A DNA stretch of 64,000 nt from Nocardioides lijunqiniae (GTDB lineage: Bacteria; Actinomycetota; Actinomycetes; Propionibacteriales; Nocardioidaceae), in the NCBI RefSeq assembly GCF_015024225.1, contig NZ_JACJGM010000003.1, positions 62,001 through 126,000 of the forward strand, written 5' to 3'. Below the pieces are notes generated by a model. That model saw nothing but the letters and a program-made list of their open reading frames with translations. It was not told where the DNA came from and did not search any database. Shown one piece after another: positions 4,915 to 51,744 of the stretch (position 1 is the first letter of the stretch; the number at the start of each line of letters is the position of its first letter). The position numbers and the translations under genes are program-made.

Positions 4915-5525
4915 TGGTCGGTCCTCCCGTAGATGGTGCGCAGCCAGATCTCGATGACCGCCTCCTCGATGACGGCGCGGTCGCCGCCGTGGGCGAGGCG
5001 CTCGAGCATCCGGTCGTTCAGCTCCAGCAGCACGCTGGCGACGGCGGCGGCGTCGACGCCGTCCGGTGCGCGGCCCGCAGCGCGCTCCGCCGCGATCATG
5101 GCCGCGACCGGCTCCACGAACGACAGCCGGTCGCTGTCCCAGAGCTCGCGCACCGCCGAGCTCGTCGCGCGCGCGTCGAGCATCGCCCGGAACAGGTGCC
5201 GGTTGGCCTCCCACGCGTCGAACAGGCCGCGGATGGTGGCGGTGATCCGGCTGTGGGGCGAGCCGTCGGAGCCGAGGTGGTTGCTGGTCGCGATCGCCTC
5301 GTACATCTCCTCCATGAGCGCGGCGACCGCGGCCTGCTTGTTCTCGAAGTAGAAGTAGAACGCCGAGCGCGTCACGCCCGCCCGCCGGGAGATCTCCGCG
5401 ATGTTGATCGACTCCAGGCTCGGGTCGTCGACGTCCACCCGCTCGCGCAGGATCTCGTCGAGGGAGCCGAGCAGGGCGGCGCGACGCTGGTCGCCGCGGT
5501 GGACGGCGCGGGGTGCGGGGGTCAT
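4911..5525 (-). CDS. TetR-family regulator, EthR-like
   Basis: TetR-family protein of 204 aa. The helix-turn-helix is INIAEISRRAGVTRSAFYFY, with an FYFYF-type recognition helix as in EthR. The C-terminal part AAERAAGRAPDGVDAAAV and ending IWLRTIYGR also resemble EthR's ligand-binding half. EthR represses the monooxygenase gene ethA; here the regulator is encoded directly after a flavin monooxygenase (ATGA overlap) and before a hydrolase (GTGA overlap). Autoregulation of this operon through the palindrome at 6945-6958 is inferred. Confidence 0.85.
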   Translation of the reverse strand: MTPAPRAVHRGDQRRAALLGSLDEILRERVDVDDPSLESINIAEISRRAGVTRSAFYFYFENKQAAVAALMEEMYEAIATSNHLGSDGSPHSRITATIRGLFDAWEANRHLFRAMLDARATSSAVRELWDSDRLSFVEPVAAMIAAERAAGRAPDGVDAAAVASVLLELNDRMLERLAHGGDRAVIEEAVIEIWLRTIYGRTDQ

Positions 5526-6883
5526 GGGCGCAAGCCTGTCAGCACCGGTGCGCCCTGCTGCTCCGCGCGCCGTACGCCGGCGGGCAGCTCCTTGGCGCGC
5601 AGGTCGTGCTCGTAGACGAAGTAGTCGAGCTGCTGGGTGTGCCGGGGCCGGTCGAGCACGTGACCGGTGTACTTCTCCTGGTCCGCGTCGATCACCTGCT
5701 CCATCTCCGCGGCAGGTGGCAGGGCGTAGCGCCCCACGGCGTACGCCGCGAGCAGCCGGGCCTGCGCCTCGACGAACGGGAAGAGCGTGGGCGTCGCCTG
5801 GGCGAACCCCATGAAGACCAGGTCCTCGATGCCGGGCTTGAACATCCGCTTGAACAGCCGGATCTGGTTGTCCGGAGCGCTGATGAAGCCCGGATCGAAG
5901 AACGGGAACGTGATGTTGTAGCCGGTGGCGTAGACGATGATGTCGAACTCGCTGTCCGTGCCGTCCTCGAAGTGCACGGTGCGGCCGTCGAGCCGCGCGA
6001 CGTTGCCCTTCGGCGTGATGTCGCCCGATCCCAGCCGCAGCGGCAGCTCCACCGACTGCGTCGGGTGCGCCTCGAAGAACTTGTGGTTGGGCTTGGGCAG
6101 GCCGTAGAGCTCGGGGTTGGACCCGGTCATGAACTGCATCTTCTGGATCATCCAGCGCTGCCACTTCAGTGGCAGGTGCGGCGAGGTGACGTAGTACTTG
6201 TCGGCCGGCAGACCGTAGGTGTACTTCGGCACGATCCAGGCGCTGGAGCGCGTGGACAGCGTGACCTCGTTCTGCAGCGCCTTGCTGGAGAGCTCGACGG
6301 CGATGTCGGCGGCGCTGTTGCCGATGCCGACGACCAGGATCCGCTTGCCCTTGAAGTCCAGGGGGTCGGTGGGGTCGATGTAGTGGTGGGAGTGGATCGT
6401 CTCGCCGGTGAACTCGCCGGGGAAGTCGGCCATGCGCGGGTCCCAGTGGTGGCCGTTGGCGACCACGAGCAGGTCGAAGCGGCGTACGTCGCCGGCCTGG
6501 TCGGTCAGCTCCCAGCCGCCGTCGTCGAGGCGCGCGGCGTGCTGCACGCCGTTCTCGAACTCGATGCGCTGCCGCAGGCCGAACGCGTCGGCGTAGGCGT
6601 CGAGGTAGGCCTTGATCTGGGTGTGGTGCGGGAAGTCGGGGTAGTCCTCCGGCATCGGGAAGTCCTTGAAGGACAGCCGGTGCTTGGAGGTGTCGATGTG
6701 CAGCGAGCGGTAGGCGCTGCTGTGGCCGTTGGGGTTGCCGAACGCCCAGTTGCCGCCCACCCGGTCGGAGGCCTCGAAGCAGGTGTAGTCGACGCCGTAG
6801 TCGCCGAGCATCTTGCCGGAGGTGAGGCCGCTGATGCCGGCGCCGATCACCGCGGCCCGGAGGGGGGTGCTGGGTCGGGACAT
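5522..6883 (-). CDS. Flavin-containing monooxygenase (class B)
   Basis: FAD/NADPH monooxygenase of 453 aa. The FAD Rossmann motif is VIGAGISGL near residue 12, the NADPH motif VVGIGNSAADIA is mid-protein, and between them lies GEFTGETIHSHHY, the FMO fingerprint FxGxxxHxxxY/F. The type I Baeyer-Villiger form of that motif (ending WP) is absent, so it is FMO-type, though some such enzymes do perform Baeyer-Villiger oxidations. ATATG-type motif YATGYNITFPF is present. It heads the operon with the EthR-like regulator and the hydrolase. Its location in a steroid block suggests a steroid or related ketone substrate, which is not shown. Confidence 0.88.
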   Translation of the reverse strand: MSRPSTPLRAAVIGAGISGLTSGKMLGDYGVDYTCFEASDRVGGNWAFGNPNGHSSAYRSLHIDTSKHRLSFKDFPMPEDYPDFPHHTQIKAYLDAYADAFGLRQRIEFENGVQHAARLDDGGWELTDQAGDVRRFDLLVVANGHHWDPRMADFPGEFTGETIHSHHYIDPTDPLDFKGKRILVVGIGNSAADIAVELSSKALQNEVTLSTRSSAWIVPKYTYGLPADKYYVTSPHLPLKWQRWMIQKMQFMTGSNPELYGLPKPNHKFFEAHPTQSVELPLRLGSGDITPKGNVARLDGRTVHFEDGTDSEFDIIVYATGYNITFPFFDPGFISAPDNQIRLFKRMFKPGIEDLVFMGFAQATPTLFPFVEAQARLLAAYAVGRYALPPAAEMEQVIDADQEKYTGHVLDRPRHTQQLDYFVYEHDLRAKELPAGVRRAEQQGAPVLTGLRP

Positions 6884-6929
6884 GTCGGGCCTTCCGTCGG
6901 GGCTCTTGCCACGAGACGTGACGACCGGC

Positions 6930-6958
6930 ACGCTAGGGCCAGATTTGACACGCGTCAA
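6930..6958 (-). promoter_or_regulatory. Candidate promoter of the FMO operon
   Basis: On the minus strand TTGACG (6958-6953) is followed after 17 nt by TAGCGT (6935-6930), a good sigma-70-like pair, with the FMO start codon about 45 nt downstream of the -10. The -35 lies inside the palindrome 6945-6958. Confidence 0.5.
6945..6958. promoter_or_regulatory. Palindromic operator candidate between FMO and SDR genes
   Basis: TTGACACGCGTCAA is an inverted repeat with arms TTGAC/GTCAA and a 4-nt centre, in the 90-bp divergent gap. It covers the -35 of the FMO operon promoter and lies 16 nt before the SDR start codon, so one bound dimer could control both directions. The EthR-like TetR is the obvious candidate protein. 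Confidence 0.5.
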
Positions 6959-6973
6959 CAGAGTGGGGCAGCC

Positions 6974-7720
6974 ATGGACCAGCAGAGCGTCGGACAGCGG
7001 ATCGCCGTCGTCGTGGGGGGCGCGTCCGGCATCGGCGCCGCCATCGCGACGGCCCTGGAGGGCGACGGCTGCCGGGTGGTGGTGGCCGACCTGGCCGTCG
7101 ACGCCGCAGTCGGACGGAGCGTCGACGTCACCGACGAGGCCTCGGTCGAGGCGCTCTTCGCCGCCGTCGTCGCCGAGCACGGACGGGTCGACGTCGTCGT
7201 CAACAGCGCCGGCGTCAGCACGCTCGGGCTGGTGACCGAGCTCGACGCCGCCGAGTTCCGGCGCGTCGTCGACGTCAACCTCACCGGCGCCTTCCTCGTG
7301 CTCAAGCACGGCGGCCGGGCCGTGGTCGACGGGGGAGTGCTGATCTCGCTCACCTCGCTCAACGCCCGCCAGCCCGGCACCGGCATGGGCGCCTACTGCG
7401 CGGCCAAGGCCGGGCTGGCGATGCTGACCGAGGTCGCCGCGCTTGAGCTGGCGCCGCGACGCGTGCGGGTCAACGCGATCTCGCCGGGGCTCGTGCTCAC
7501 CCCGCTCACCGCACCTGCCATGGACATCGCGGGCATCGAGGACGACTACCTCGCCAACACCCCGCTCGGCCGCGCCGGCCTGCCCGAGGAGATAGCCGCG
7601 GCCGCGGTCTACGTCGCCGGGGCGGCCTGGCTCACCGGCGAGGTGCTCGACCTCAACGGCGGCGCCCACCTCGCGCGCTACCCCGACATCCACGGCCACG
7701 TGATGAGGGCGTTCGCATGA
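6974..7720 (+). CDS. Short-chain dehydrogenase/reductase 1
   Basis: Classical SDR of 248 aa, NAD(P)-dependent alcohol/ketone oxidoreductase. Seen: the cofactor loop GGASGIGAA at the N-terminus (with VGG for the usual TGG), NSAGVSTLG, the catalytic serine in LISLTSLNA and the YCAAK tyrosine/lysine pair, and SPGLVLTPLT. It is transcribed divergently from the FMO operon and overlaps the next SDR by ATGA. Steroid hydroxyl/ketone oxidoreduction is plausible from context only. Confidence 0.85.
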   Translation: MDQQSVGQRIAVVVGGASGIGAAIATALEGDGCRVVVADLAVDAAVGRSVDVTDEASVEALFAAVVAEHGRVDVVVNSAGVSTLGLVTELDAAEFRRVVDVNLTGAFLVLKHGGRAVVDGGVLISLTSLNARQPGTGMGAYCAAKAGLAMLTEVAALELAPRRVRVNAISPGLVLTPLTAPAMDIAGIEDDYLANTPLGRAGLPEEIAAAAVYVAGAAWLTGEVLDLNGGAHLARYPDIHGHVMRAFA

Positions 7721-8580
7721 GCCGGCACGCGATCGTCACCGGCGGGGGCTCCGGCATCGGCGCCGCTCTCTGTCGGGCGCTCGTCGCCTCAGGCGACCAC
7801 GTCGTCGTCGCCGACCTCGACGAGGTCGCGGCCCAGAGGACCGTGGACAGCGTGCGCGGCAGCGGGACGGCGAGGGCGCTGCGGCTGGACGTGACCGACG
7901 CGGCGGCCGTGCAGGCCGCGGTGGACGACGTGGTGGCGCGCGAGGGCCGGCTGGACCTGATGTTCAACAACGCGGGCATCTCCCTCGGCGGGGAGACCGA
8001 GGAGCTCACGCTCGCGCACTGGAACGCGATCATCGACGTCAACATCCGTGGCGTGGTCCACGGCGTGGCGGCGGCGTACCCGGTCATGGTCCGCCAGGGC
8101 GCCGCCGTAGGTCGTGGTGGGCACATCGTCAACACCGCCTCCATGGGCGGGCTGATGGCGGCCGGGCTGCTGACCAGCTACGTGATGACCAAGCACGCCG
8201 TGGTCGGCCTGTCGTTGGCGCTGCGCTCCGAGGCGGCGGCCAAGGGCGTGGGCGTGACGGTGGTCTGCCCGTCGGCGGTCGACACCCCGATCCTGGACAA
8301 GGGGGCGGTGGGCCGCTTCCACGGCCGCGACTACTTCCTCAAGGGCCAGGGCGTCAGGCGGCCGCACGACCCCGACGTGCTGGCCCAGGAGGTGCTCCGC
8401 GCCGTGGCGGAGGACCGCGGGCTGCTGGTCACGCCCCGCACGGCACGCGCCACGTGGCTGTTCGGCCGGCTGGCCCCGGTGACGACCCAGCGGATGTCGG
8501 CGAGGTTCGTCGCCAAGCAGCGGGCGATGCAGGCGGCGCGCGCGGGGGCGGCGCTTTCATCCCCGCGGCAAAAACTATAA
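7717..8580 (+). CDS. Short-chain dehydrogenase/reductase 2
   Basis: SDR of 287 aa. Seen: TGGGSGIGAAL, FNNAGISLGG, NTASMGGLMAAG with the catalytic Ser, and SYVMTKHA (YxxxK), then VCPSAVDTPIL. It carries an extension of about 40 residues rich in basic residues past the SDR fold, common in SDRs of the steroid/lipid type. It is translationally coupled to SDR 1. Its last codons run into the KstR-like operator of kshA. Substrate unknown. Confidence 0.85.
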   Translation: MSRHAIVTGGGSGIGAALCRALVASGDHVVVADLDEVAAQRTVDSVRGSGTARALRLDVTDAAAVQAAVDDVVAREGRLDLMFNNAGISLGGETEELTLAHWNAIIDVNIRGVVHGVAAAYPVMVRQGAAVGRGGHIVNTASMGGLMAAGLLTSYVMTKHAVVGLSLALRSEAAAKGVGVTVVCPSAVDTPILDKGAVGRFHGRDYFLKGQGVRRPHDPDVLAQEVLRAVAEDRGLLVTPRTARATWLFGRLAPVTTQRMSARFVAKQRAMQAARAGAALSSPRQKL

Positions 8581-8589
8581 CCTGTTCTT
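8576..8589. promoter_or_regulatory. KstR-like operator upstream of kshA
   Basis: TATAACCTGTTCTT matches TnnAACnnGTTnnA except for the final T. It begins within the last codons of SDR 2 and lies 46 nt before the kshA start codon. It is the second such site in the window, again in front of a gene that belongs to the KstR regulon in other actinobacteria. Confidence 0.72.
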
Positions 8590-8634
8590 GTTTTGCGCGT
8601 CCGCACGCACGACCCGGTCGGAGAGAGGCACACG

Positions 8635-9816
8635 ATGAGCGACACGAGGATCCTCGACAAGGGCACGCCGCCCGAGCGCTTCGCGCGCGGCTGGCACTGC
8701 CTCGGGCTCGCCGACAGCTTCGGCGACGGCAAGCCGCACCGGATCGAGGCGTTCGGAGGTCAGCTCGTCGTCTGGCAGGACACCCAGGGCGGGCTCAACG
8801 TCCTCGACGGCTACTGCCGCCACATGGGCGGCGACCTCACCCAGGGCACGGTCAAGGGCGACGAGATTGCGTGCCCGTTCCACGACTGGCGCTGGGGCGG
8901 CGACGGCAAGTGCAAGGCCATCCCGTACGCCCGCCGGGTGCCGTTGCGCGCCCGCACCCAGAAGTACCCCACGGCCATCCGCAACGGCCAGCTGCTGATC
9001 TGGCACGACGTCGAGGGCTCCGCGGCCGACCACGACCTGCTGCCGCCCGAGCTGCCCGGTGTCGGCACCGACGAGTACACCGACTGGACCTGGGAGGTCG
9101 TGCCGATCACCGACTCCCACTGCCGCGAGCTCATCGACAACGTCGTCGACATGGCGCACTTCTACTACGTGCACTTCTCGTTCCCGACCAGCTTCCGCAA
9201 CGTCTTCGAGGGCCACCAGGCGACCCAGTTCATGGAGTCCAAGGGCCGCCCCGACATGACCGGCGGCTACGGCGACGCCGAGCTGTTCCTCAAGTCCGAG
9301 GCCACCTACTACGGGCCGTCGTACATGATCAACTGGCTCGACGTCGACTACAAGGGCTTCGAGACCGAGGTCATCCTGATCAACTGCCACATCCCGACCG
9401 GGCCCGACTCGTTCACGCTCCAGTACGGCATCACGGTCAAGAAGCCCGAGGGCATCGACGACAAGACCGCCGCCTACATCAGCAAGAAGTACGCCGAGAT
9501 GTTCGGCGGTGGCTTCCTGCAGGACGTGCACATCTGGAAGAACAAGGTGCCCGTGCAGAACCCCCTCCTCTGCGAGGAGGACGGCCCCGTCTACCAGCTG
9601 CGCCGGTGGTACGAGCAGTTCTACGTCGACCGGGCCGACGTGCAGCCGGAGATGGTCGACCGCTTCGAGTTCGAGGTCGACACCACCAAGGCCAACGAGT
9701 ACTGGCAGGAGGAGGTCGCCCAGAACCTCGCGCGGAAGGCGGCCGACGAGAAGGCCGCGGACGAGGCCCCCACGTCGACCGAGAGCGACACGCCGTCGGT
9801 CATGACGGGCACCTGA
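8635..9816 (+). CDS. kshA: 3-ketosteroid 9-alpha-hydroxylase, oxygenase component KshA
   Basis: Rieske non-heme iron oxygenase of 393 aa. The Rieske cluster ligands are C61/H63 (CRH) and C80/H83 (CPFH). The mononuclear iron ligands are H175 and H180 in DMAHFYYVHF, with an aspartate in QDVHIWKN. NVVDMAHFYYVHFSFP and VFEGHQATQF are typical of KshA. It hydroxylates C9 of 1,4-androstadienedione-type steroids, leading to opening of ring B. Start ATG 8635 has GGAGAGAGG upstream; an upstream in-frame start at 8593 lacks a ribosome site. The acidic, Lys/Ala-rich tail after about residue 370 looks unstructured. Confidence 0.93.
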   Translation: MSDTRILDKGTPPERFARGWHCLGLADSFGDGKPHRIEAFGGQLVVWQDTQGGLNVLDGYCRHMGGDLTQGTVKGDEIACPFHDWRWGGDGKCKAIPYARRVPLRARTQKYPTAIRNGQLLIWHDVEGSAADHDLLPPELPGVGTDEYTDWTWEVVPITDSHCRELIDNVVDMAHFYYVHFSFPTSFRNVFEGHQATQFMESKGRPDMTGGYGDAELFLKSEATYYGPSYMINWLDVDYKGFETEVILINCHIPTGPDSFTLQYGITVKKPEGIDDKTAAYISKKYAEMFGGGFLQDVHIWKNKVPVQNPLLCEEDGPVYQLRRWYEQFYVDRADVQPEMVDRFEFEVDTTKANEYWQEEVAQNLARKAADEKAADEAPTSTESDTPSVMTGT

Positions 9817-10112
9817 TGGCGTCCTTCGTCCCGACCAGCGCCGACACCCTCGAGGACCAGCGCCTCTACACCAGCGCCCGCCTCACCGACGTCGCGTGCC
9901 TGGACTGCCTGGCGCGGGTCGGCGTGAAGAAGAACAGCGACCACCACACCTCGATCCAGTGGAGCCGCGAGGCGCGCGAGGCGTGCCCCGAGCTGTCGCG
10001 CCGCGACGGGCGCGGGCGCGACCACCACCAGGGGTGCCCCCGGCTGAGCGCCAGCATCGAGTCCGCCGTACGTGAGGGGAAGGTCGACATCGGCGCCGAG
10101 GACGGATACTGA
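9816..10112 (+). CDS. Small Cys/His-rich protein between kshA and kshB
   Basis: 98 aa, unrecognised. The start ATG overlaps the kshA stop (TGATG) and kshB begins 8 nt after its stop, so it is co-translated with both hydroxylase components. It contains CLDCLARVGVKK, a His pair in SDHHTSIQW, a Cys in EACPEL and DHHQGC: four Cys and four clustered His, suggesting a metal site. Intact reading frame and tight coupling argue for a real protein. Possible roles are iron/cluster delivery or an adaptor for KshA, both speculative. The mycobacterial gene after kshA also encodes a small hypothetical protein; homology was not tested. Confidence 0.75.
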   Translation: MASFVPTSADTLEDQRLYTSARLTDVACLDCLARVGVKKNSDHHTSIQWSREAREACPELSRRDGRGRDHHQGCPRLSASIESAVREGKVDIGAEDGY

Positions 10113-10119
10113 CCCACCC

Positions 10120-11223
10120 ATGGACACCGCATCCTTCGAGCTCACGGTCGCGGAGGTCGTCGAGGAGACGGCCGACGCGCACTCGGTCACCTTCGAGGTC
10201 CCCGACGAGCACGCCGACCACTTCTCCTACCAGCCCGGTCAGTTCCTGACCGTCGCCGTCCCCAGCGACCGGACCGGCGTCGCCGCGCGCTGCTACTCGC
10301 TGTCCAGCAGCCCGCTGTCGTACGAGGAGACCGGACGGCTGACGATCACCGTCAAGCGCACCGTCGACGGCTACGCCTCCCACTGGATCTGCGACCGGCT
10401 CCGCCGGGGCGACACCCTGCGGGTGCTGCCGCCCAGCGGCATCTTCACCCCCGCCTCGCTCGACGCCGACCTGCTGCTGTTCGCCGGCGGGTCGGGCATC
10501 ACCCCGATCCTGTCGATCACGCGCACGGCGCTGGCGCAGGGCTCCGGGCGCATCGTGCTGTTCTACGCCAACCGCGACGAGTCGTCGGTGATCTTCGCCG
10601 CCGAGCTCAGCGCCCTCGCGGCCGAGCACCCGGAGCGGCTCCAGGTCGTCCACTGGCTCGAGTCGGTCCAGGGGCTTCCGACGCCCGAGCAGATGAAGGC
10701 GTTCGCCGCCGCCCACTCGTCGGCCGACGCGTTCGTCTGCGGGCCGGCGCCGTTCATGAAGATGACCGTGGGCGCGCTCAAGGAGCTCGGCTTCCCGCGC
10801 GACCGTCGTCACCAGGAGAAGTTCGTCTCCCTCGGCGGCAACCCCTTCGGCGACCTCCACGACGTCGAGGTGGCCGAGAGCGAGATCTCCGCGGCCGAGA
10901 CCGACGAGCAGGACGCCGCCGACGACGCGGCTGTCGGCGCGCGCGGTCCCGCCCGGCTCGAGGTCGAGCTCGACGGCGAGCAGCACGCCTTCGACGACTG
11001 GGAGGCCGGCACCAAGATGCTCGACCACCTGGAGGCGAAGGGCATCAAGGCGCCGTACTCGTGCCGCGAGGGGGAGTGCTCGGCCTGCGCGGTCCGGCTC
11101 CTCGAGGGCGAGGTCAAGCTTCTCCACAACGACGTCCTCGACGACGAGGACCTCGACGAGGGCATCCGGCTGGCCTGCCAGGCCCTCCCGGTCACGGACA
11201 CCGTCAAGGTCACCTACAGCTGA
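10120..11223 (+). CDS. kshB: 3-ketosteroid 9-alpha-hydroxylase, reductase component KshB
   Basis: Ferredoxin-NAD(P) reductase of 367 aa supplying electrons to KshA. In order: FAD domain with RCYSLSSSP; NAD domain with FAGGSGITP and VCGPAPFMK; an Asp/Glu-rich linker around residues 245-285; and a C-terminal plant-type [2Fe-2S] domain with SCREGECSAC and a final LACQ cysteine. This FAD-NAD-Fe-S order is that of KshB/PaaE-type reductases. An upstream in-frame start at 10072 lies inside the previous gene, so ATG 10120 is preferred. It is the last gene before a strong hairpin. Confidence 0.9.
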   Translation: MDTASFELTVAEVVEETADAHSVTFEVPDEHADHFSYQPGQFLTVAVPSDRTGVAARCYSLSSSPLSYEETGRLTITVKRTVDGYASHWICDRLRRGDTLRVLPPSGIFTPASLDADLLLFAGGSGITPILSITRTALAQGSGRIVLFYANRDESSVIFAAELSALAAEHPERLQVVHWLESVQGLPTPEQMKAFAAAHSSADAFVCGPAPFMKMTVGALKELGFPRDRRHQEKFVSLGGNPFGDLHDVEVAESEISAAETDEQDAADDAAVGARGPARLEVELDGEQHAFDDWEAGTKMLDHLEAKGIKAPYSCREGECSACAVRLLEGEVKLLHNDVLDDEDLDEGIRLACQALPVTDTVKVTYS

Positions 11224-11376
11224 GATCCACGGGCGGGTAACAAAGTGAGCCGGTCTAGCCCACAAAGGCAAATAGACGGTAACAGGTGACACGGAGCGCC
11301 GGGACCGGTTAGATCGTTCCCAGAACGCCTCGGTGCTCGGTGCATGGGGACCCGCCGCGGGCGTTCCTGCGGTAGC

Positions 11377-11421
11377 GCGACCTGTCCCGGCCCATCCCCC
11401 CATGTCTCCGGGACAGGTCGC
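11377..11421. terminator. Long perfect hairpin between convergent genes
   Basis: GCGACCTGTCCCGG (11377-11390) and its exact reverse complement (11408-11421) form a 14-bp GC-rich stem with a 17-nt loop. No T-run follows, as is usual in high-GC actinobacteria. A bidirectional terminator is the simplest reading. Confidence 0.6.
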
Positions 11422-11426
11422 CGCCT

Positions 11427-11450
11427 CGTCCCGCCTCTCGGGGCGGGATG
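11427..11450. terminator. Second hairpin in the same convergent gap
   Basis: TCCCGCC and GGCGGGA with two more outer pairs (one G-T) give a stem of about 9 bp and a 6-nt loop, 5 nt after the longer hairpin. Confidence 0.4.
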
Positions 11451-11467
11451 ACGTGCGGCGCGCGGAC

Positions 11468-12151
11468 CTACCAGCCCCGTGCCCGCCACTCCGGGATCGA
11501 CGCCCGCTCGGCGCCGAGCGTGGAGTCGTCGCCGTGGCCGGGGTAGAACCACGTGTCGTCGGGCAGGGCGGCGAAGATCTTGGTCTCGACCTCGTCGACG
11601 AGCTGGGCGAACGCCGCGTCGTCGCCGAAGGTGTTGCCGACGCCGCCGGGGAACAGCGAGTCGCCGGTGAACAGGTGCGGGTGACCCTCGGGGTCGCGGT
11701 AGACGAGCGCGATCGAGCCGGGGGTGTGGCCGGCGACCGCGATGACCTCCAGCGTGCAGGCGCCGACCGCGACCGTGTCGCCGTCGCCGACCGTGCGGGT
11801 GACCGGGACCCCGGTCTGGTCGGTGATGGCCGCGGCGTCCGGCGCTCCGGCCACGACCTCCGCGCCCGTCGCGCGGACGACGGCGTCCAAGGCGCGGTGG
11901 TGGTCCCAGTGCTGGTGGGTGGTGACGACGGTGGCCAAGCCGGCGTCGCCGATGACCGGCAGCAGCGTCTCGGGCTCGGACGCGGCGTCGACGAGCACCT
12001 GGTCGCCGGTCTCCCGGCAGGTGAGGAGGTAGCAGTTGTTGGACATCGCCTCGTCCACCGCGACCTTGGTGATGCGCAGGTGCGCGAGCTCGCGCACGTC
12101 GGCGCCGCCGCCGACCGTCACCTCGCCGGTGTAGCCCTCGTCGCTCACCAT
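11468..12151 (-). CDS. MBL-fold metallo-hydrolase
   Basis: Metallo-beta-lactamase-fold hydrolase of 227 aa. Metal ligands seen: THQHWDHH, a His in AGHTPGS, Asp in FTGDSLF and His in YPGHGDD. The pattern is that of glyoxalase II-like/rhodanese-associated MBL enzymes that cleave thioesters or related bonds. Start is ATG 12151 or GTG 12148; the latter gives a classic GTGA overlap with the upstream gene. The neighbour belongs to the mycothiol-dependent isomerase family, so a low-molecular-weight-thiol conjugate is a possible substrate (inference). Confidence 0.82.
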   Translation of the reverse strand: MVSDEGYTGEVTVGGGADVRELAHLRITKVAVDEAMSNNCYLLTCRETGDQVLVDAASEPETLLPVIGDAGLATVVTTHQHWDHHRALDAVVRATGAEVVAGAPDAAAITDQTGVPVTRTVGDGDTVAVGACTLEVIAVAGHTPGSIALVYRDPEGHPHLFTGDSLFPGGVGNTFGDDAAFAQLVDEVETKIFAALPDDTWFYPGHGDDSTLGAERASIPEWRARGW

Positions 12152-42075: not shown

Positions 42076-42491
42076 GCTCCGCATCCTTCCTCGCCTCGTG
42101 CCCCGAGCGCACGGGAGTTGGATGACGGGGAGGTCTGGTTGATCACGTCGGCGCCGGGCGTGATCACGTGGCCCGGCAGGATCGTGGTGATGCGGATCCC
42201 GACGGGCGCGCGCTCGGTGGCCAGCGCCTTGCTGTAAGCGTTGAGCGCGGCGCGACGCCCTCGCGGCCCGCTCGCTCGCCACGGTCGAGTCGCTGGCACC
42301 GGGGGCTGGAGGCGCTCGCGAAGGCGGTGGTCGACCCGGCGACCCTGAACCGCATCGCCACCGCGCCGCCGTGGACAACATCGCCCTCGACACGACTCGC
42401 GAGACAGGTCGCGCGCCCTCTCTCGGCTAAGGGAGAGCGGGTTCTCCACAGGGCTCGCTTCGGCGCTCGACGGGTGTCGGTGGTCGGGTCT
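42076..42491. other. Decayed intergenic stretch
   Basis: 416 bp before the HNH gene. It holds an SDR gene remnant (42132-42251, minus). The rest (about 42256-42470) has high GC and open frames on both strands but no recognisable protein and no start signals; it is probably degraded coding sequence. Confidence 0.5.
42132..42251 (-). pseudogene. SDR C-terminal remnant
   Basis: The minus strand encodes LNAYSKALATERAPVG followed by IRITTILPGHVITPGA: the YxxxK catalytic pair and following strand of a short-chain dehydrogenase, with nothing of the Rossmann N-terminus before it and no proper end after it. It is about 40 codons of a gene that would need 250. Confidence 0.55.
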
Positions 42492-42496
42492 ATGGT
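42491..42496 (+). promoter_or_regulatory. -10 hexamer of the DUF222/HNH gene
   Basis: TATGGT ends 7 nt before ATG 42504 and abuts the SOS box. A poor -35 (TCGACG, 42467-42472) is 18 nt upstream. Confidence 0.4.
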
Positions 42497-42511
42497 CGAA
42501 CACATGTTCGA
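42496..42511. promoter_or_regulatory. Perfect LexA (SOS) box over the HNH gene start
   Basis: TCGAACACATGTTCGA is a perfect 16-bp palindrome matching TCGAAC-N4-GTTCGA. The ATG at 42504 lies inside it, so LexA would cover the transcription and translation start. 13E12/DUF222 genes of mycobacteria are known LexA targets with boxes at the same place. Confidence 0.85.
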
Positions 42512-43802
42512 GTCACTCATGCGGCAGGTCCGAGAAGCGCGGTCCGCGCTCGCCGCCTGCCCGAGCGACATGGACGATGCCGAGCGGGTCGATCTCCTGC
42601 GGGAGCTGGAGGACCTCAAGTGCGCGGCGTCGGCCGCGCAGACGGTCACCGCGGTGGAGCTGGAGGCCTCGCAGCGTGCGGCGCAGATCGAGGCCGGTGT
42701 CCGTCCGAGCCGGGTGGGGGAGGGCATCGCGGCGCAGATAGGCCTGGCCCGTCGCGAGTCGCCCCACCAGGCCGCGCGGCTGCTGGGCCTGGGCAAGGTC
42801 CTGACCCGCGAGATGCCCCACACGCTGCGCCTCATGCAGCAAGGCCGCCTGTCGGAGTGGCGGGCCACGATCCTGGCCCGCGAGACCGCCTGCCTGTCGC
42901 TGGAGCACCGCGCCGAGGTCGACGCCCGGCTGTGTGCCAGTGGTGACGCCGCGACGATGAGCGACCAGGGCCTGACCCGCGCCGCGAGGAAGCTCGCGTG
43001 CGAGCTCGACCCGGCCGCGGTCGCCGAGCGTGCCCGTCGCGCGGAGACCGAGCGGCACGTCTCGCTGCGGCCCGCGCCGGACACGATGTGCTGGATCCGG
43101 GTCCTGCTCCCGGTCAAGCAGGCGGTGTGGGTCTACGCGGTCCTGCTCACGATCGCCAAGACCGCCCGCGCCCAGGGCGACCCCCGCTCCCAGGGGGAGC
43201 TCATGGCCGACACCCTGGTCGAGCGCGTCACCGGCGAGTCCACCGAGGCGGCGCCGAAGGTCGAGGTCAAGCTGGTCATGAGCGACACCTCCTTCTTCGG
43301 CACCTCCCAGGACGCCGCCCACGTCGAGGGCTACGGCCCGGTGCCGGCACCATGGGCACGGGCATTCGTCAAGGACGCCGCCACCCAAGCCAGGCTCTGG
43401 GTCCGGCGGCTCTACGTTCTGCCGAGCACCGGTGAGCTGATCGCGATGGACTCCCGCGCCCGCTGCGCCCCGGCCGGGTTAGCCGACTTCGTGGCCACCC
43501 GTGACCTGGGCCTGTGCCGCACCCCGTGGTGCGGCGCCCCGATCCGTGAGTCCGACCACGTCGAGGCCTACGAGCACGGCGGCCCCACGGCCTCCTACAA
43601 CCTGCAGGGCCTCTGCCGGCGCTGCAACCTCGTCAAGCAGGCCCTCGGGTGGCGCGCGGCCCAGGTCTTCAGCCTCTGGCGCCACACCGTCGAGACGATC
43701 ACCCCGACCGGTCACCGATATCGCTCCCGCGCACCCGCCCCACCCGGCCACGTCGAGATCTACACCTACGGCGAACGACTCGAGCTCGAACTCACCGCCT
43801 AA
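42504..43802 (+). CDS. DUF222 / HNH endonuclease protein (13E12 type), SOS-controlled
   Basis: 432 aa. An N-terminal helical DUF222 domain (about residues 10-330) is followed by an HNH nuclease domain: CRTPWCGAPIRESDHVEAYEHGG ... NLQGLCRRCNLVKQ in part, with zinc cysteines and the DH/N core. Such proteins are abundant, mobile-looking families in actinobacteria with unknown biological role. ATG 42504 lies in the SOS box with a -10 just upstream (leaderless); ATG 42492 is possible too. It is flanked by gene remnants, fitting repeated insertion at this locus. Confidence 0.88.
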   Translation: MFESLMRQVREARSALAACPSDMDDAERVDLLRELEDLKCAASAAQTVTAVELEASQRAAQIEAGVRPSRVGEGIAAQIGLARRESPHQAARLLGLGKVLTREMPHTLRLMQQGRLSEWRATILARETACLSLEHRAEVDARLCASGDAATMSDQGLTRAARKLACELDPAAVAERARRAETERHVSLRPAPDTMCWIRVLLPVKQAVWVYAVLLTIAKTARAQGDPRSQGELMADTLVERVTGESTEAAPKVEVKLVMSDTSFFGTSQDAAHVEGYGPVPAPWARAFVKDAATQARLWVRRLYVLPSTGELIAMDSRARCAPAGLADFVATRDLGLCRTPWCGAPIRESDHVEAYEHGGPTASYNLQGLCRRCNLVKQALGWRAAQVFSLWRHTVETITPTGHRYRSRAPAPPGHVEIYTYGERLELELTA

Positions 43803-45659: not shown

Positions 45660-48455
45660 CTAGCGCTTCCTGACCCGGAAGGTCAGGACCTTGGGCCTGG
45701 ACACGAGCCCGGTGGTTCCGGTGACGGTGATCGTCGCCCTGTAGGTGCCCGGCACGAGCTTCTTGGTGCGGTAGGCGATCGCGGTCCTGCCCGCCGACTG
45801 CGTGCTGCTCAGCGTCGTGACCACCCGGGTGTAGGTGCACTTCTTCTTCGCCTTGTTCTTGGCGGTCTTCGGCTTGCAGACACCCGCGACCATCCGGCCG
45901 ACAGTGGGCTTGCCGACCAGGACCCGCGTGACCCCACGAGCCGAGGACGTCACCGAGAACGTGACGCGCTTCCCCCTGGCGACGGACTTGGGGGCGACGC
46001 CAGCCGCCCTGATGACGGGAGCGGCGGTTGCGGGCGGAGTGGTGGGCGGGACGTCGAAGTGGGCTCTGACGATCTTGTCTGCGTCCATCGTGACGACGCA
46101 GGGGTTGGCGCTGCCCGTGCAGCCACCGGTCCAGTACGAGAAGGTCGATCCGGGGTCCGGCGTCGCGGTCAGGGTGACGACCTCACCGTCGTCGTACGTC
46201 GATTCGCAGGAGGACCAGCAAGGAAACGCGCCATCGGCCCCCTGGACGCTGCTGCCGCCCAGTATCTGGACCTTCAGACTGCGGGGCCGGCGGAACCTGG
46301 GTGTCACGATGGTGCCGCCGTCCTTGACGGTGACCTCGCACTCCGGGTCCGTGCCGCAGTCGACGTCGTCACCCCACCCCAGGAGCTCCGAGTCGCTGTC
46401 CGGTGTCGCGGTCAGGACGACGACGGCACCGACGGGCACGTCGGAGTCGGTGCAGGTCGTGCCGCAGTCGATGCCCGGCAGGTCGCTCGTGACCGTCCCG
46501 GTCCCGGTGCCGGTCTTGACGACGGAGAGGGGCGCGTGGTTGACCGTCCCGGCGACAAGCTCGCCGGTGACGTCGGCGGCGAGGCAGAACGTCGTGCCGG
46601 CGCAGGCCACGCCCTGGTACGTGGTGGGCCGCCGGCCCGACGCCTGTGCGACCGCACCATTCCACCATTCCTCATCCAGCCCGGGGGCCTGGGCGATGAG
46701 GTATCCGGAGGAGACCGCCACGCAGACGTCGTCCGCACTGCAGTCGATGTCGAAGATCCGTGAGCGCGCGGTGTCCTGGGGGAAGCCGGCGACCGGCACC
46801 TCGTACCAGTCGTTGAGGTCCTCGGAGGGGTTCAGCCGCCACAGGTGGCCGCCCGCGTCACCGACGAGACAGCGGGTGGCGGAGGGGCAAGTCATGGCTC
46901 GGGGCGCCCACTCCACGGTGGCGGGCTTGTCGCCTCCGGAGGACCAGCCGTCCGTGGCGGGGTCCGTCGACCGCAGGATGTGACCGCCGTTCGTCACGGC
47001 GAAGCACTCGGTCGTCGTGCGGCAGGTCACGACGCTGATCCAGTCGTCCGTGACGATCGGGTCGACGGCCCAGGCTGCGGTGGTCGGCGCCGTGGAGGTG
47101 ATGATGTCGCCGTCCTGGGTGCCGAGCACGCAGAGAGCGGCCGACGGGCACGACACAGCACCGATGGTCGCGGCGCCCGCGACGTTGCGGACGGTCGCGG
47201 TGCGTGCGCCGAAGGGGTCCTCCACGGTGACGACCTCGCCGCCCGTGTAGCCCACGACGCACAGGGAGACGGTCGGGCAGTCGACCTTCTGCGCGGCCCG
47301 GCCCGACGGGTTGACCTGGGTCGTCGTCCAGGCGGAGGCGGCCCCGGTGGGGGAGCTGCTCGTGAGCAGGTGGCCGGTGCCGTCGACGGCGACGCACGCC
47401 GTGGCCGAGAGGCAGTCGACGTCGGTGAGGCTGTTGAGCTCCTCCCGTACGCCGCCCGTGGTCCAGGTCGCGGTCGAGGCGGCAGCGTCTTCGGTGCTGA
47501 TCATGCGGCCGTCGGTGGTCCCGACCACGCACGCCGTGCCCCCTCGCACGCAGCCGACGGCGCTCATACCCTCCGGGTGAGTCGTGGTCGGGGTGAAGGA
47601 CCCTCCGCCGATGCTGCGTCGGGCCGTCGTGCTGGCGGCGTCGATCTCGACGCACAGGCTCGTCGTAGGGCAGTCGAGCTCGCTCGTCGAGTCCGCCGCG
47701 CGCCCCACGCAGGTGGTCGGCGTCGAGCACGAGACCGTGACGTGGTGATTCACGGCGTTGGCGATGGACCAGCTGGCGAACGGTGACCCGGGGGAGCTCA
47801 TCGACTCCATCTCCCCGCCGTGCCCGTCGACGCCCTTGCAGAGCGTGCCGGGCGAGACCGCGCACGAGACGTCGGTGAAAGGCACCTGGTTGAAGTAGTC
47901 GCGCACGTCCCAGCTCTGGATCGGGTCCGTGGAGTACCACAGCCCACCGCCGGAAGGTCCCCGTCCCGCGGCGGCGCACAGCGTGGTCGTCGCACACGAG
48001 ACCGCGGTCAAGGGATGGGGCTGGTCGAGGACGACCCTCCAGGACGACTCGGTCGCGGGCTCGTCCGATCCGTACATCAGGCCGGACTCCGTCGCGGCGA
48101 GACAGAACGACGCCGTGGCGCACGCGATGTCGGTGAAGCGCAGCGCGTGGTCGGTGAAACGCTCCGTCCACGGCCCTGCGGTGCCAGGCGCGGTGCGGAC
48201 GACGCCGTACTGGCTCACCGACGCGCAGAAGCCGGCCGACGGGCACGAGACGCCGGTGACCCGGGCCCTGCTGCTGAACGGCGCCTCGTTCACCACCTGC
48301 TGCGACGTGCCCCAGGTGACGGTGTCACCGGTCTCATCGGGAGCCGCAGCCGTGGCCGGCCCGCTCGGCGGGCCGACCAGGATTCCGAGGGTCGCGATGA
48401 TCACCGCCAGGACCGACAGCAGTGAGACCGACCGCCTCGTTCGACGAGCGAGCAC
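45660..48455 (-). CDS. Large secreted protein with 14 Cys-motif repeats
   Basis: 931 aa. Sec signal peptide (TRRSVSLLSVLAVIIATLG ... ATAAAP). Residues about 65-650 hold 14 copies of a motif like VxCPxxxxCxA (for example VSCPSAGFCAS, VDCPTVSLCVV, MTCPSATRCLV), most followed by a G-x-hydrophobic strand and a T-x-DP turn, spaced about 40-50 residues: a beta-propeller-like layout with one potential disulfide per blade. Two 'bacterial repeat' modules follow (LTATPDSDSELLGW, LTATPDPGSTFSYW), then an Ig-like basic C-terminus. No LPXTG or membrane anchor. GTG 48455 has GAGGAGGG just upstream. Function unknown; adhesion or surface binding is likely. Confidence 0.75.
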   Translation of the reverse strand: MLARRTRRSVSLLSVLAVIIATLGILVGPPSGPATAAAPDETGDTVTWGTSQQVVNEAPFSSRARVTGVSCPSAGFCASVSQYGVVRTAPGTAGPWTERFTDHALRFTDIACATASFCLAATESGLMYGSDEPATESSWRVVLDQPHPLTAVSCATTTLCAAAGRGPSGGGLWYSTDPIQSWDVRDYFNQVPFTDVSCAVSPGTLCKGVDGHGGEMESMSSPGSPFASWSIANAVNHHVTVSCSTPTTCVGRAADSTSELDCPTTSLCVEIDAASTTARRSIGGGSFTPTTTHPEGMSAVGCVRGGTACVVGTTDGRMISTEDAAASTATWTTGGVREELNSLTDVDCLSATACVAVDGTGHLLTSSSPTGAASAWTTTQVNPSGRAAQKVDCPTVSLCVVGYTGGEVVTVEDPFGARTATVRNVAGAATIGAVSCPSAALCVLGTQDGDIITSTAPTTAAWAVDPIVTDDWISVVTCRTTTECFAVTNGGHILRSTDPATDGWSSGGDKPATVEWAPRAMTCPSATRCLVGDAGGHLWRLNPSEDLNDWYEVPVAGFPQDTARSRIFDIDCSADDVCVAVSSGYLIAQAPGLDEEWWNGAVAQASGRRPTTYQGVACAGTTFCLAADVTGELVAGTVNHAPLSVVKTGTGTGTVTSDLPGIDCGTTCTDSDVPVGAVVVLTATPDSDSELLGWGDDVDCGTDPECEVTVKDGGTIVTPRFRRPRSLKVQILGGSSVQGADGAFPCWSSCESTYDDGEVVTLTATPDPGSTFSYWTGGCTGSANPCVVTMDADKIVRAHFDVPPTTPPATAAPVIRAAGVAPKSVARGKRVTFSVTSSARGVTRVLVGKPTVGRMVAGVCKPKTAKNKAKKKCTYTRVVTTLSSTQSAGRTAIAYRTKKLVPGTYRATITVTGTTGLVSRPKVLTFRVRKR

Positions 48456-48494
48456 GGGTCCCTCCTCAGGGGCACAGCGCAGCATGGTGACTCG

Positions 48495-50624
48495 CTAGCC
48501 CCCCACGCCGCTCAGGGGCACGTGGCCGGTCAGCGCGCCGGGTGCGGTGATCGCGATGGAGGCGGTGGCACTGCCCGCCTGACTGGGATCGAAGCCCACC
48601 TGGAAGAGGCACGTCGCGTTCGGTGCGAGGACCTTCCCGGCGCACTCGTCGGGATCGATGAGGAACTGGCCAGGCACGTTCTCGTCCTCGAGAGCGAAGC
48701 TGACGACCCCCGAGGGCGCTTCGCCGGTGTTCCTCAGCACCAGGGTTCGTTCGGAGTACCCGACAGCCACCGGGATCGTCCCGAAGTTGATCGAGGTAGT
48801 GGGGGCCACCGAGAACATGGCCGGTGCGCGGACGGTGCCCTCCAGCGAGGCGGTCGTGGTCCCGCCGGGCTGGCCGCTCACGACGAGCGCGGCCGACCTC
48901 CCGCCGTGGGAGCCCGTGGGCTCGAACAGAACGGTCACCGAACAGGTGGATCCGGTGGTGAGAGTGGCGCCACCGCACCCATCGCTGACGATCCGGAACT
49001 GGGATGCGTCCGGACCTGTCAGCTGGCTGCTCAACGCGCCGGTGGTGGCGGCATCGAGGTTGGTGACCGTGAACGACGTGGCCTGCGTGGTCTCCCCGGC
49101 GAAGGCACTGAAGGAGCGGCTGGAGGGGGCGACCGTCATCGGGCGGCCCGAGCCTGTGAGAGCGATGACGACGATGCCGCCAGGGGTGGAGCGCAAGGAG
49201 AGCTGCGCCGTCTTGGCGCCGGGTGACGTGGGCCGGAAGGCGACCTCGATGCTGCACGACTGTCGGGGAGCGACCTGGGGTGAGCAGTTCTGCCACCCGA
49301 GCTGGAACTGATCGGCGTCGGGGCCGGTGATGGTCACGCTGACGTCCCTCTTGGTGTCGTCGGTCGCGTTGCCGGGACTGATCGTCTGGGTGCCGCTCTG
49401 GTCTCCGACGGCGACCGTCCCGAAGTCCACCTGGGAGTTCCAGATCCAGAAGCCCGTCTCGCCGGTCCCCGTGAGCATGAAGCTCAGGTCGCCTCCCGGC
49501 GCGGCACTGACCCAGAGCTTCGCGTACAGGGGGCCCTGAGCGCGCGCCTCGAGGTTCACCGAGACCGTGCACGACTCGCCGACATCGAGCGTCACGCCGG
49601 CGCAGGTCTGCGACACGATGTTGAAACCCGTGGCCGCGCCGTTCTCGATGGCCGGCTCCGCGATCACCCCGGACTCGTAGGTGCCGTCGTTGGAGATGGT
49701 GAAGGTGGTGGTGGGGGTGGCCACCCGCTGGGGGACCGTGCCGAAGTCCTGGCCGCCGACCCCGCTCGTGAGGTGCGCCCCCAGCGGGTCGACGCCCGTG
49801 CCCTGAAGACCGGTGGTCGCCGAGACGAGGCCAGGCCCGGCCCCCGCGCGGACGGTCAGACTGCCCGCCTTGGTCCCGGGGCCGGCGGGGCTGAAGCTCA
49901 CGACCAGGTTGCACGCGGAGCCGACCCGCAGTGGCTTGCCGGCACACCCGTCGGTGACGATCGCGAAACCGCTGTCGCCGGTCAGCGCCGCGCGGGCCAA
50001 GGCGGGCAGCGATCCGGTGCCGGTGTTGGTCACGGTGATGGTCTTCTGGGCAGGGGCGGACCCGATCGCCACCGTCTGGAAGTCGTAGCTCGTCGGGGCG
50101 AGCGTGAGCTTCCCGCCGGAGGGGGCGGCCGGCCCGGACGCCGTGACCCGGATCGGCTTGGTGCTGACCCGGCAGTTGTTCCTCTCGTTGCGCTCGCGGA
50201 CCTTCTTCTTCGCGTCGGCGCAGACGACCAGGTAGTAGGACCCCGCCGCTGTCCGGGAGGGGATCGCCACCGAGATCTTGCGGGAGACGGACCTCCGCGG
50301 TCGCAGTGGCGTCATCTTGCTGGTCGCAGCCAGACCGGTGTCACCACCGACCTTGCGATCCCGGGACAGCGACAGGCCGACGACCGACGCGCCGGCGGCC
50401 TTGGTGCCGGTGTTCTTGAGCGTGGTCGAGATCCGCATGCTCGTGCCGGCCCTCACCGCCGAGGCGGTGGCGACCTTCGCGACCGTCAGGTCGGGCTGGC
50501 GCTTGGCGGCGGTGGATGCCTGCCCGGGGGCCCCCAGAGCAGGCAGCACCAGCGCTAGGAGGAGCAGGGAGATGGCGGTCCGCGAGGTCGTACGCCGGCG
50601 TCTCGCGCCCGCAGCGGTAGTCAC
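48495..50624 (-). CDS. Secreted protein with CARDB and five ASH-type repeats
   Basis: 709 aa. Signal peptide (SRTAISLLLLALVLPALGAP). Residues about 43-160 form a CARDB-like adhesion domain (LTVAKVATASAVRAG, NERNNCRVS). Then come five ASH/'choice-of-anchor D' repeats, each with F(G/Q)TVxxG at the start and a C-x(4-8)-G-x-x-C pair before a V-x-F-x-P strand. The protein is encoded just upstream of the 14-repeat protein and ends 40 bp before it, so the two are probably co-expressed. No anchor seen. A surface or matrix role is inferred. Confidence 0.75.
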   Translation of the reverse strand: MTTAAGARRRRTTSRTAISLLLLALVLPALGAPGQASTAAKRQPDLTVAKVATASAVRAGTSMRISTTLKNTGTKAAGASVVGLSLSRDRKVGGDTGLAATSKMTPLRPRRSVSRKISVAIPSRTAAGSYYLVVCADAKKKVRERNERNNCRVSTKPIRVTASGPAAPSGGKLTLAPTSYDFQTVAIGSAPAQKTITVTNTGTGSLPALARAALTGDSGFAIVTDGCAGKPLRVGSACNLVVSFSPAGPGTKAGSLTVRAGAGPGLVSATTGLQGTGVDPLGAHLTSGVGGQDFGTVPQRVATPTTTFTISNDGTYESGVIAEPAIENGAATGFNIVSQTCAGVTLDVGESCTVSVNLEARAQGPLYAKLWVSAAPGGDLSFMLTGTGETGFWIWNSQVDFGTVAVGDQSGTQTISPGNATDDTKRDVSVTITGPDADQFQLGWQNCSPQVAPRQSCSIEVAFRPTSPGAKTAQLSLRSTPGGIVVIALTGSGRPMTVAPSSRSFSAFAGETTQATSFTVTNLDAATTGALSSQLTGPDASQFRIVSDGCGGATLTTGSTCSVTVLFEPTGSHGGRSAALVVSGQPGGTTTASLEGTVRAPAMFSVAPTTSINFGTIPVAVGYSERTLVLRNTGEAPSGVVSFALEDENVPGQFLIDPDECAGKVLAPNATCLFQVGFDPSQAGSATASIAITAPGALTGHVPLSGVGG

Positions 50625-50778: not shown

Positions 50779-51744
50779 ATGTCGATGCCTCCACGGACGG
50801 GAGTGGCTGCGGCCCTGGTGTCGTGCCTCTCAGCGCTCTTCCTGACGGCGTGCGCCGGCACCGACGAGGCGAAGGAGCGGCCGCGCGCTCTCTCAGGTCG
50901 GGCAGGGTCTCCGGCTGGCGCGTCGGCGCCCGGCGAGTGCCTGGACGCGGCGGAGGCGACGAGGAGGAGCGTGGAGGGGGCGCCGCTGTGGGCGAGGTTC
51001 TGCCCAGGCTCGCAAGGGAGCACGTCGCCGGCCGAGGTGCCGTCCGACGCGTTGATCACCCACATGGAGCTCCTCGACGGGCTGGTCGCGCTCAGGTCGG
51101 TGGGTGGGCCGAGGCGGGTGGGGTGCGCGGGGTCAGGGGCTCGGACCTACCGGCTCCAGATCGGCTACGACGACGGCCGGGTCGCGACCGTCGTCGGGCA
51201 CACCGACCCACACTGCGCCGGGTACATCCCCGGCGCCGGAACGTTGGTCGACGGCCCGAACGGCCTCGGGGTCTACGGGCTGCTGATGACGGCGTTCGGT
51301 CGCCAGCACGCCGACGGCTTCGAGGACGCCGCGGGCGACCAGGCGCTCGCCTGCCCGACAGACCCTCGCCAGCCCGACAGCGTCGACCGTGACGGCGCGT
51401 CGGCGTCGATGGACACCGGCTACGTCCTCGGAGAGCGGGCGCCGATGGTCATGCCGCTGCCGGCGGTCCGCGGGATCGTCTGCACCTGGCCGTTCGGGGC
51501 GGAGAGCAAGGCAGCCCGGGTGCGAGACCTCAGCCCCGAGGACGCCGAGCGCGTGCGCATCGGCCTGCACGCCATCACCAGCGGCATGGTCGACTGCGGG
51601 GGGAGCCCGGAGCCCACGCACACCGCTGTCGTCGAGGACCGGACGGGCACCCGGCGCGCGGTGACGGTCGTCGATTCGGAGTGCGAGACCGTGATTCGCA
51701 GCGACGAGGGGTACGGCCTGGGTCTCGCCTGGCTCGAGCGGTAG
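50779..51744 (+). CDS. Lipoprotein of unknown function
   Basis: 321 aa. Signal peptide with lipobox LTAC at about residues 22-25, then a low-complexity linker and two similar-looking segments with conserved Cys (GECLDAAEATRRS, GCAGSGARTYRLQIGYDDGR, DPHCAGYIPG and MVDCGGSPEPTHT, SECETVIRS). No family recognised. It is divergent from the ASH-repeat gene and convergent with ctaA, at the right edge of the accessory stretch. Confidence 0.65.
   Translation: MSMPPRTGVAAALVSCLSALFLTACAGTDEAKERPRALSGRAGSPAGASAPGECLDAAEATRRSVEGAPLWARFCPGSQGSTSPAEVPSDALITHMELLDGLVALRSVGGPRRVGCAGSGARTYRLQIGYDDGRVATVVGHTDPHCAGYIPGAGTLVDGPNGLGVYGLLMTAFGRQHADGFEDAAGDQALACPTDPRQPDSVDRDGASASMDTGYVLGERAPMVMPLPAVRGIVCTWPFGAESKAARVRDLSPEDAERVRIGLHAITSGMVDCGGSPEPTHTAVVEDRTGTRRAVTVVDSECETVIRSDEGYGLGLAWLER

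Follow-up and report, generated by a model that had tools for sequence, protein, structure and literature searches.

Seven-bladed rings are known among Asp-box propellers. According to the main text of an Asp-box survey, which contains neither 'disulfide' nor 'cystein' by term search, only the top face of these propellers is used in the known structures, and GH74 is a tandem of seven-bladed Asp-box propellers made from one continuous stretch (PMC2716378). WRAP of Nostoc (PDB 2YMU) likewise folds its 14 blades into two seven-bladed rings (PMC6805158). Paired cysteines have been described in the ectodomain of plant CRINKLY4, where each of seven repeats of ~39 residues carries a pair thought to form an intra-repeat disulfide (PMC4617170), and Plasmodium CyRPA is a propeller of the neuraminidase fold in which five disulfides lie within blades (PMC5349852). 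Among the open-licence papers listed by a literature search, none was recognised, by title or start of abstract, as dealing with a bacterial propeller family whose blades all carry a cysteine pair, which does not prove the absence of such work. Here we analysed a stretch of 64,000 nucleotides (nt) from Nocardioides lijunqiniae (contig NZ_JACJGM010000003.1, positions 62,001 to 126,000; hereafter the window), in which two adjacent genes encode a protein of 931 amino acids (aa) with 14 cysteine-paired repeats, denoted protein A, and a protein of 709 aa, denoted protein B. We consider it likely that protein A is an exported pair of tandem seven-bladed BNR/Ycf48-like propellers, with a disulfide in each blade and the role of a non-catalytic binding head, and that protein B is a separate immunoglobulin (Ig)-like rod.

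Cysteine repeats of protein A

The gene for protein A (window positions 45,660-48,455, minus strand, GTG start) encodes a tandem repeat region followed by InlB-B repeats and a cysteine-paired tail. Protein A has 38 cysteines, and its 14 blade pairs were read straight from the list of all of them. The pairs of blades 1-7 (residues 65-341, positions 47,433-48,263, minus strand, placed by motif positions and alignment) start at residues 71, 112, 154, 198, 243, 262, and 302, and those of blades 8-14 (residues 342-644, positions 46,524-47,432, minus strand, placed by structure prediction and structural alignment) at residues 348, 393, 436, 478, 523, 572, and 618. The resulting spacings are 41, 42, 44, 45, 19, 40, 46, 45, 43, 42, 45, 49, and 46 residues. 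The loose expression C-x(4-7)-C-x-[AGVIL] also matched protein A 14 times, whereas 10,000 shuffled sequences averaged 2.4 matches and never had more than 9; twelve of the 14 matches in protein A fell in the propeller region and two in the InlB-B modules, with blades 1 and 6 missed. An earlier note, made from the letters of this DNA, had described 14 cysteine-motif repeats, of which repeats 5 and 6 stood nearer to each other than the others. Both statements were borne out, the latter by the spacing of 19.

This short spacing belongs to blade 5 (positions 47,691-47,747, minus strand, delimited by alignment), a stub of 19 residues, compared with 40-49 for the other repeats that are bounded by a following motif. 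The stub keeps its cysteine pair, which the alignment places on strands A-B, and has no segment aligning with strands C-D. The gap in blade 5 is also present in Nocardioides sp. 503.

Seven-bladed model and blade numbers among relatives

For blades 8-14, AlphaFold2 (AF2) gave one good model out of five, with 28 strands arranged as seven sets of four round one axis (predicted local distance difference test, pLDDT, 74.2; predicted template modelling score, pTM, 0.80). The underlying alignment had eight rows, consisting of the window's own pieces and those of sp. 503. Foldseek with this model returned 1,875 matches at E <= 0.001, of which the first was 4nsx, a tandem WD protein. VIA-align 2, used as a second look at Foldseek's match list, ranked the seven-bladed ring of nvWrap-T (7bie) highest (Z 32.3, 2.2 Å over 278 residues); among the 50 matches listed, Z was 30.0-32.3, and most were WD40 and lyase propellers. 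These rankings therefore indicate a seven-bladed fold and do not tell the subfamily, Ycf48 not being singled out by structure. Single-sequence searches against solved structures gave no match for protein A and two weak ones for protein B, and a 13-row propeller profile gave nine weak matches, the best being Utp4 at E 0.003. The AF2 model supports a predicted seven-bladed beta-propeller fold for blades 8-14.

Relatives of the propeller were found with the propeller of a genus homologue (genome G183) and with a profile of seven-blade rows, part of whose matched places were taken. A single-blade profile built from 81 seed blades of 11 proteins was then run on the unique open reading frames (ORFs) of the retrieved stretches. 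It matched 57 ORFs, of which 7 were cut by the end of a stretch and 1 had fewer than four matches, leaving 49. These include the 11 seed proteins and the G183 query itself. Paralogues sharing a genome are also among the 49, which therefore cannot count as independent observations. By raw profile counts, 20 ORFs had 7 blades, 8 had 14, 1 had 21, and 20 had other numbers, which places 29 of the 49 on multiples of seven. All 49 were read by eye, though not blind, because automatic gap-filling gave multiples of seven in 35 of 49 with some overcounts. Eighteen of the 20 off-rule ORFs gained sub-threshold blades in this reading, and no missed blades were seen in the inspected ends and gaps of the 29 others. 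After the reading, 32 ORFs had 7 blades, 14 had 14, and 1 had 21, with two exceptions, so that 47 of the 49 followed a multiple of seven. The single three-ring ORF, L090 (5454-8876 of its stretch, plus strand, 1141 aa), has 14 blades, a TIG-like linker recognised by eye, and 7 further blades.

The cysteines of the family follow the blades. Between the first and last scored blade, their number was even in 48 of 49 relatives, most often 14 or 28. Every blade match that could be scored at both cysteine columns had both cysteines (450 of 450), a count towards which the cysteine-rich profile biases selection. In 13 aligned propellers, the invariant columns were all cysteine, and the near-invariant ones were G, V, S, W, and C. 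With no polar residue common to the family, we read the rings as non-catalytic binding heads. Protein A might instead be an exported enzyme of the GH74 or sialidase type, with its active site between the tandem propellers. GH74 shares the tandem of seven-bladed rings (PMC2716378), and the NCBIfam glycosylhydrolase model F510_1955 was matched by 5 of the 49 relatives. However, the all-cysteine invariant columns of 13 distant propellers leave no family-wide active site, and neither Pfam nor NCBIfam gave a glycosidase match for protein A, which makes an enzyme of this type very improbable.

Matches to known models place some family members on the BNR/Ycf48 side, since PSII_BNR and the NCBIfam Ycf48 model were each matched by 5 of the 49 relatives. 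The other Pfam matches were Sortilin-Vps10 (5), BNR (3), BNR_2 (3), PQQ_2 (1), and Tachylectin (1), and at least 30 of the 49 matched no propeller family among those checked. The gathering score of PSII_BNR (PF14870) was reached by relatives L051 and L053 and not by protein A. Several relatives (L053-L056, L093, L102, L120) carry a second repeat, GYWFVASDGGIFSFG..GSMGGKPLNKPIVGMA, behind their propellers, which may account for the unexpected hits to DUF6087 and DUF2510 in Pfam. Relative L056 (ORF 7953-11597 of its stretch, plus strand) has a Pro-kumamolisin activation domain (PF09286) and, in the middle of the protein, a complete seven-blade cysteine propeller with GGTSAAAP behind it; judged by this motif, read by eye, the ring seems to be inserted in a sedolisin-like protease domain.

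The propeller is thinly spread in the genus. At least 9 of 196 genus genomes matched protein A; in 6 of these 9 the match covered the InlB-B part or the signal region only, and one alignment reached the end of blade 14. The propeller itself was present in at least 3 of the 196 genomes, namely the genome of the window, Nocardioides sp. 503, and G183, whose homologue has a single seven-bladed ring with three InlB-B repeats behind it. Searches with the G183 propeller matched at least 6 of 396 genomes of the phylum at E 1e-10 (the window's own included) and at least 4 of 294 genomes of the family at E 1e-8 (the window's own and G183 included). In the class to which genome G415 belongs, the 13-row profile matched at least 16 of 148 genomes at E 1e-12, and in two of these it matched over 20 places. 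Each of these rates is a minimum, since scoring covered part of the candidates in each genome, at most 4 for protein A in the genus, 5 for protein B in the genus and for the G183 query in the phylum, 7 in the family, and 17 for the 13-row profile. The propeller profile matched 24 places in genome G415 and 25 in G837, where one ORF can hold several, so the propeller family is expanded in some lineages. No further copy of protein A was found in its own genome at E 0.001. No relative in viral contigs was confirmed with two protein queries, and none was found with a DNA pattern.

The way in which the rings close was approached through their end strands. Of 29 ORFs, 19 had a lone tryptophan strand ahead of the first blade and 8 had one behind the last; such a strand was seen in 223 of 243 internal blades and in 64 of 280 background windows. 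In several relatives the protein ends directly behind the last blade's strand C. Protein A fits this pattern, with the strand-D-like segment TVTWGTSQQV (residues 45-54, positions 48,294-48,323, minus strand) ahead of blade 1 and a last blade that ends, by sequence, after strand C. A lone N-terminal strand together with a last blade short of strand D is the remnant expected of a velcro-closed ring, and on the family pattern this segment is a candidate velcro strand.

In the model that we propose, protein A would be exported by a Sec-type signal, recognised by eye, and would fold into two tandem seven-bladed BNR/Ycf48-like beta-propellers. One disulfide would staple the first two strands of each blade, with bonds formed within rather than between blades, and this stapling may keep the rings rigid outside the cell. 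In the first propeller, blade 5 would have lost its two outer strands and kept the two inner ones. The InlB-B repeats and the tail would serve as a stalk or as a wall contact.

Several observations weigh against this reading. The other four AF2 models of blades 8-14 had pLDDT of 34-52, the good model falls below pLDDT 50 at its residues 1-19, 278-289, 319-324, and 328-331, and its alignment included blades of the first propeller of protein A as rows. Full-length AF2 prediction from three rows reached a pLDDT of only 35, and the first propeller was never well modelled. The hairpin formed by the strands at residues 22-29 and 32-37 of the model sets Cys 27 and Cys 33 one step off direct register. 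By Foldseek, Ycf48 (5ojr) was second by E-value with a TM score of 0.53 and a root-mean-square deviation (rmsd) of 10.4, whereas MEP50 aligned better (TM 0.68, rmsd 3.8), and protein A itself matched no Pfam propeller. The multiple-of-seven rule was broken by L110, with 6 blades, and by L127, with 11 repeats (ORF 5484-7646 of its stretch, minus strand, by blade reading), and the 14th blade of L067, read by eye, has no cysteine pair. The absence of a shared polar residue leaves room for an active site private to protein A. The N-terminal velcro closure, which lies outside our main claim, is weakened by the model of blades 8-14, in which model residues 323-326, where the InlB-B part begins, are assigned with low confidence as strand four of the last blade. 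Finally, blades i and i+7 of protein A were no more alike than other pairs of blades; for want of this signal, a recent doubling of one ring into two was rejected.

The two seven-bladed propellers suggested by the earlier note, and the AlphaFold propeller count it had proposed as a check, thus came out in part: a seven-bladed ring was obtained from blades 8-14, and relatives have 7, 14, or 21 blades, but blades 1-7 have no confident model, and the full-length prediction yielded no count. The unusable full-length prediction and the 11-repeat relative would also suit an open solenoid or one large ring of 14 repeats, without seven-fold rings. To this arrangement we give hardly any credence, considering the 47 of 49 relatives on multiples of seven, the AF2 and VIA-align results for blades 8-14, and the 14 blades of WRAP, which give two seven-bladed rings (PMC6805158).

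The locus and the A/B pair

Proteins A and B are encoded on the minus strand in the order B, then A, with B upstream and an intergenic gap of 39 nt. The best choice for the start of protein A is the GTG at 48,455, preceded by GAGGAGG at 48,467-48,461; the longer ORF would give 941 aa. Residues 1-37 (48,345-48,455, minus strand) form a putative Sec-type signal peptide with a basic head and a hydrophobic core, the signal peptides of both proteins having been assessed by eye, and residues 12-22 are a helix in the full-length AF2 prediction, at low confidence. Behind the propeller region, two InlB B-repeat (Flg_new_2) modules with four cysteine pairs occupy residues 645-801 (46,053-46,523, minus strand, outer limits approximate), where PF18998 matched two stretches (E 3e-17, 62.8 bits, cut-off 23.6). 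The C-terminal Ig-like tail (residues 802-931; 45,660-46,052, minus strand) has the cysteine pair 860/873 in the cysteine list and a weak TIGR03769 match under the cut-off; no LPXTG or membrane segment was seen in it by eye.

The gene for protein B (48,495-50,624, minus strand, GTG start) encodes a CARDB domain at residues 43-152 (50,169-50,498, minus strand; PF07705, E 3.1e-20, 72.7 bits, cut-off 22.7) and five ASH/choice-of-anchor D repeats at residues 173-709 (48,498-50,108, minus strand). The repeats were identified with NF012200 (five stretches, E 6e-59, 197.3 bits, curated cut-off 45 bits), PF22073, PF22544, and PF15780. The 12 cysteines of protein B form a pair in CARDB (135/151) and one pair in each ASH repeat, with members 10-11 residues apart. 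The earlier note had thus located both ORFs correctly and was right about the two 'bacterial repeat' modules of protein A and about the CARDB and five cysteine-paired ASH repeats of protein B, although 'giant' is inexact for proteins of 931 and 709 aa.

The neighbouring genes look ordinary, encoding YaeQ, a 197-aa protein without a Pfam match, CtaA, and an ABC transporter. A 321-aa lipoprotein-like gene (50,779-51,744, plus strand), likewise without a Pfam match, separates ctaA from B in this Nocardioides. In sp. 503 (L027), the ctaA ORF ends at 5,671 and B runs from about 5,838, leaving ~170 bases between them, so this gene has been gained or lost. A DUF222-HNH endonuclease gene (42,168-43,802, plus strand) also lies near the pair.

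The B-A order is kept in sp. 503, the nearest relative at the locus. Protein identity between the two species is 661/708 for protein B and 531/615 for the propeller part of protein A. The ratio of nonsynonymous to synonymous substitution rates (dN/dS) was 0.45 for the A propellers and 0.39 for B, compared with 0.09, 0.06, and 0.22 for three neighbours. At window positions 49,400-49,999, B is nearly identical to that of sp. 503, with 2, 0, and 4 mismatches in blocks of 200 bases, whereas the blocks over A and the remainder of B diverge by about 2-19%. The near-identical stretch suggests a recent exchange or a local constraint.

One reading of these data is the decay of a surface-protein pair specific to this lineage, marked by the truncated blade 5 here and a frameshift in the sister species. 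The A gene of sp. 503 does carry a one-base deletion in the blade-14 region, the dN/dS of the A propellers is above that of the neighbours, and propeller homologues were found in 3 of 196 genus genomes with at most 4 candidates scored in each. However, the dN/dS is below 1, and the A gene of the window is open across 931 codons with all 14 cysteine pairs kept. The stub of blade 5 is common to both species and hence not a new lesion. Both reading pieces of A in sp. 503 are otherwise open, so the frameshift may be an assembly error, although it may equally be a recent lesion. We regard decay as doubtful.

The earlier note had proposed that the two proteins might form a disulfide-rich adhesive or matrix pair. 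On this reading, A and B would be an obligate extracellular complex, in which the Ig rod of B presents or anchors the propellers of A. The shared strand, the short gap, the order kept in sp. 503, and the similarly raised dN/dS of both genes are consistent with a complex. However, in the genus search with protein B (E 1e-15), at least 21 of 196 genomes matched, and B was full-length only in the window's genome and sp. 503, the other 19 being partial. G183, which has the propeller, matched B only in the CARDB region when all candidates of the whole genome were scored. A profile from the ASH repeats of B found ASH ORFs in the window, in sp. 503, and at loci retrieved with B, but none beside the other propellers (L028, L050-L129), many of whose flanks are short (at least 1 kb on both sides in 36 of the 49 propeller ORFs and at least 2 kb in 17). 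Furthermore, a near-neighbour partner exists in the cysteine list for all 38 cysteines of protein A and all 12 of protein B. With a possible within-domain partner for each, none is left for cross-links, which makes a disulfide-linked A/B matrix unlikely. The proposed pair was therefore not upheld: outside the close lineage, homologues were rarely adjacent as far as these flanks reach. An obligate complex is in our view unlikely, and the A/B pair appears to be at most a local partnership. We favour instead a protein B that would be a separate Ig-like rod, made of CARDB and five ASH repeats and probably co-transcribed with A.

Comparison with known propellers

We somewhat favour the view that protein A is a two-ring member of a large, mostly unnamed Actinomycetota family of secreted seven-bladed propellers with a disulfide in each blade that serve as interchangeable binding heads. 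If so, the family comprises proteins with one to three rings, fused to Ig, TIG, fibronectin, or InlB-B modules and in one case placed inside a sedolisin-type protease, and it has expanded in some genomes. The multiple-of-seven counts would offer a simple, testable rule, and the fold and the number of rings could be read from the cysteines. Protein A would further show that a ring tolerates a half-deleted blade, and its stub of blade 5 offers a natural experiment on the extent to which a blade in a ring may be reduced.

Protein B resembles choice-of-anchor D/ASH proteins in its five NF012200 domains but has, by eye, no known C-terminal anchor. A search for the copper-binding MopE family gave no match in the window's genome, and it was uninformative because the control genomes gave none either.

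The role of CyRPA is non-enzymatic. CyRPA has six blades and comes from an unrelated organism (PMC5349852), whereas CRINKLY4 is a plant receptor kinase with RCC1-like repeats and the motif C(X10)CWG (PMC4617170). Both are likened to protein A as analogies; as far as these sources describe them, they are the closest parallels that we found for a cysteine pair in each or most blades.

GH74, as described in the Asp-box survey, resembles protein A in having two seven-bladed rings from a continuous repeat stretch (PMC2716378), but protein A has no glycosidase match, and its family has no common polar site. WRAP shares the 14 blades arranged as two rings, and nvWrap-T (7bie) was the best VIA-align match; in contrast, the WD40 blades of WRAP are nearly identical to each other, and 'disulfide' is absent from the main text of its description by term search (PMC6805158).

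The propeller fold itself is already known, and the best reading of the paired-cysteine blades is as a variant of BNR/Ycf48-like propellers that escapes most library models, so that such secreted proteins would go without a fold assignment. Protein A and the Ycf48, PSII_BNR, and Asp-box proteins would share a seven-bladed BNR-type ring, and some relatives match their models; protein A differs from them in matching no BNR model and in carrying a cysteine pair in each blade.

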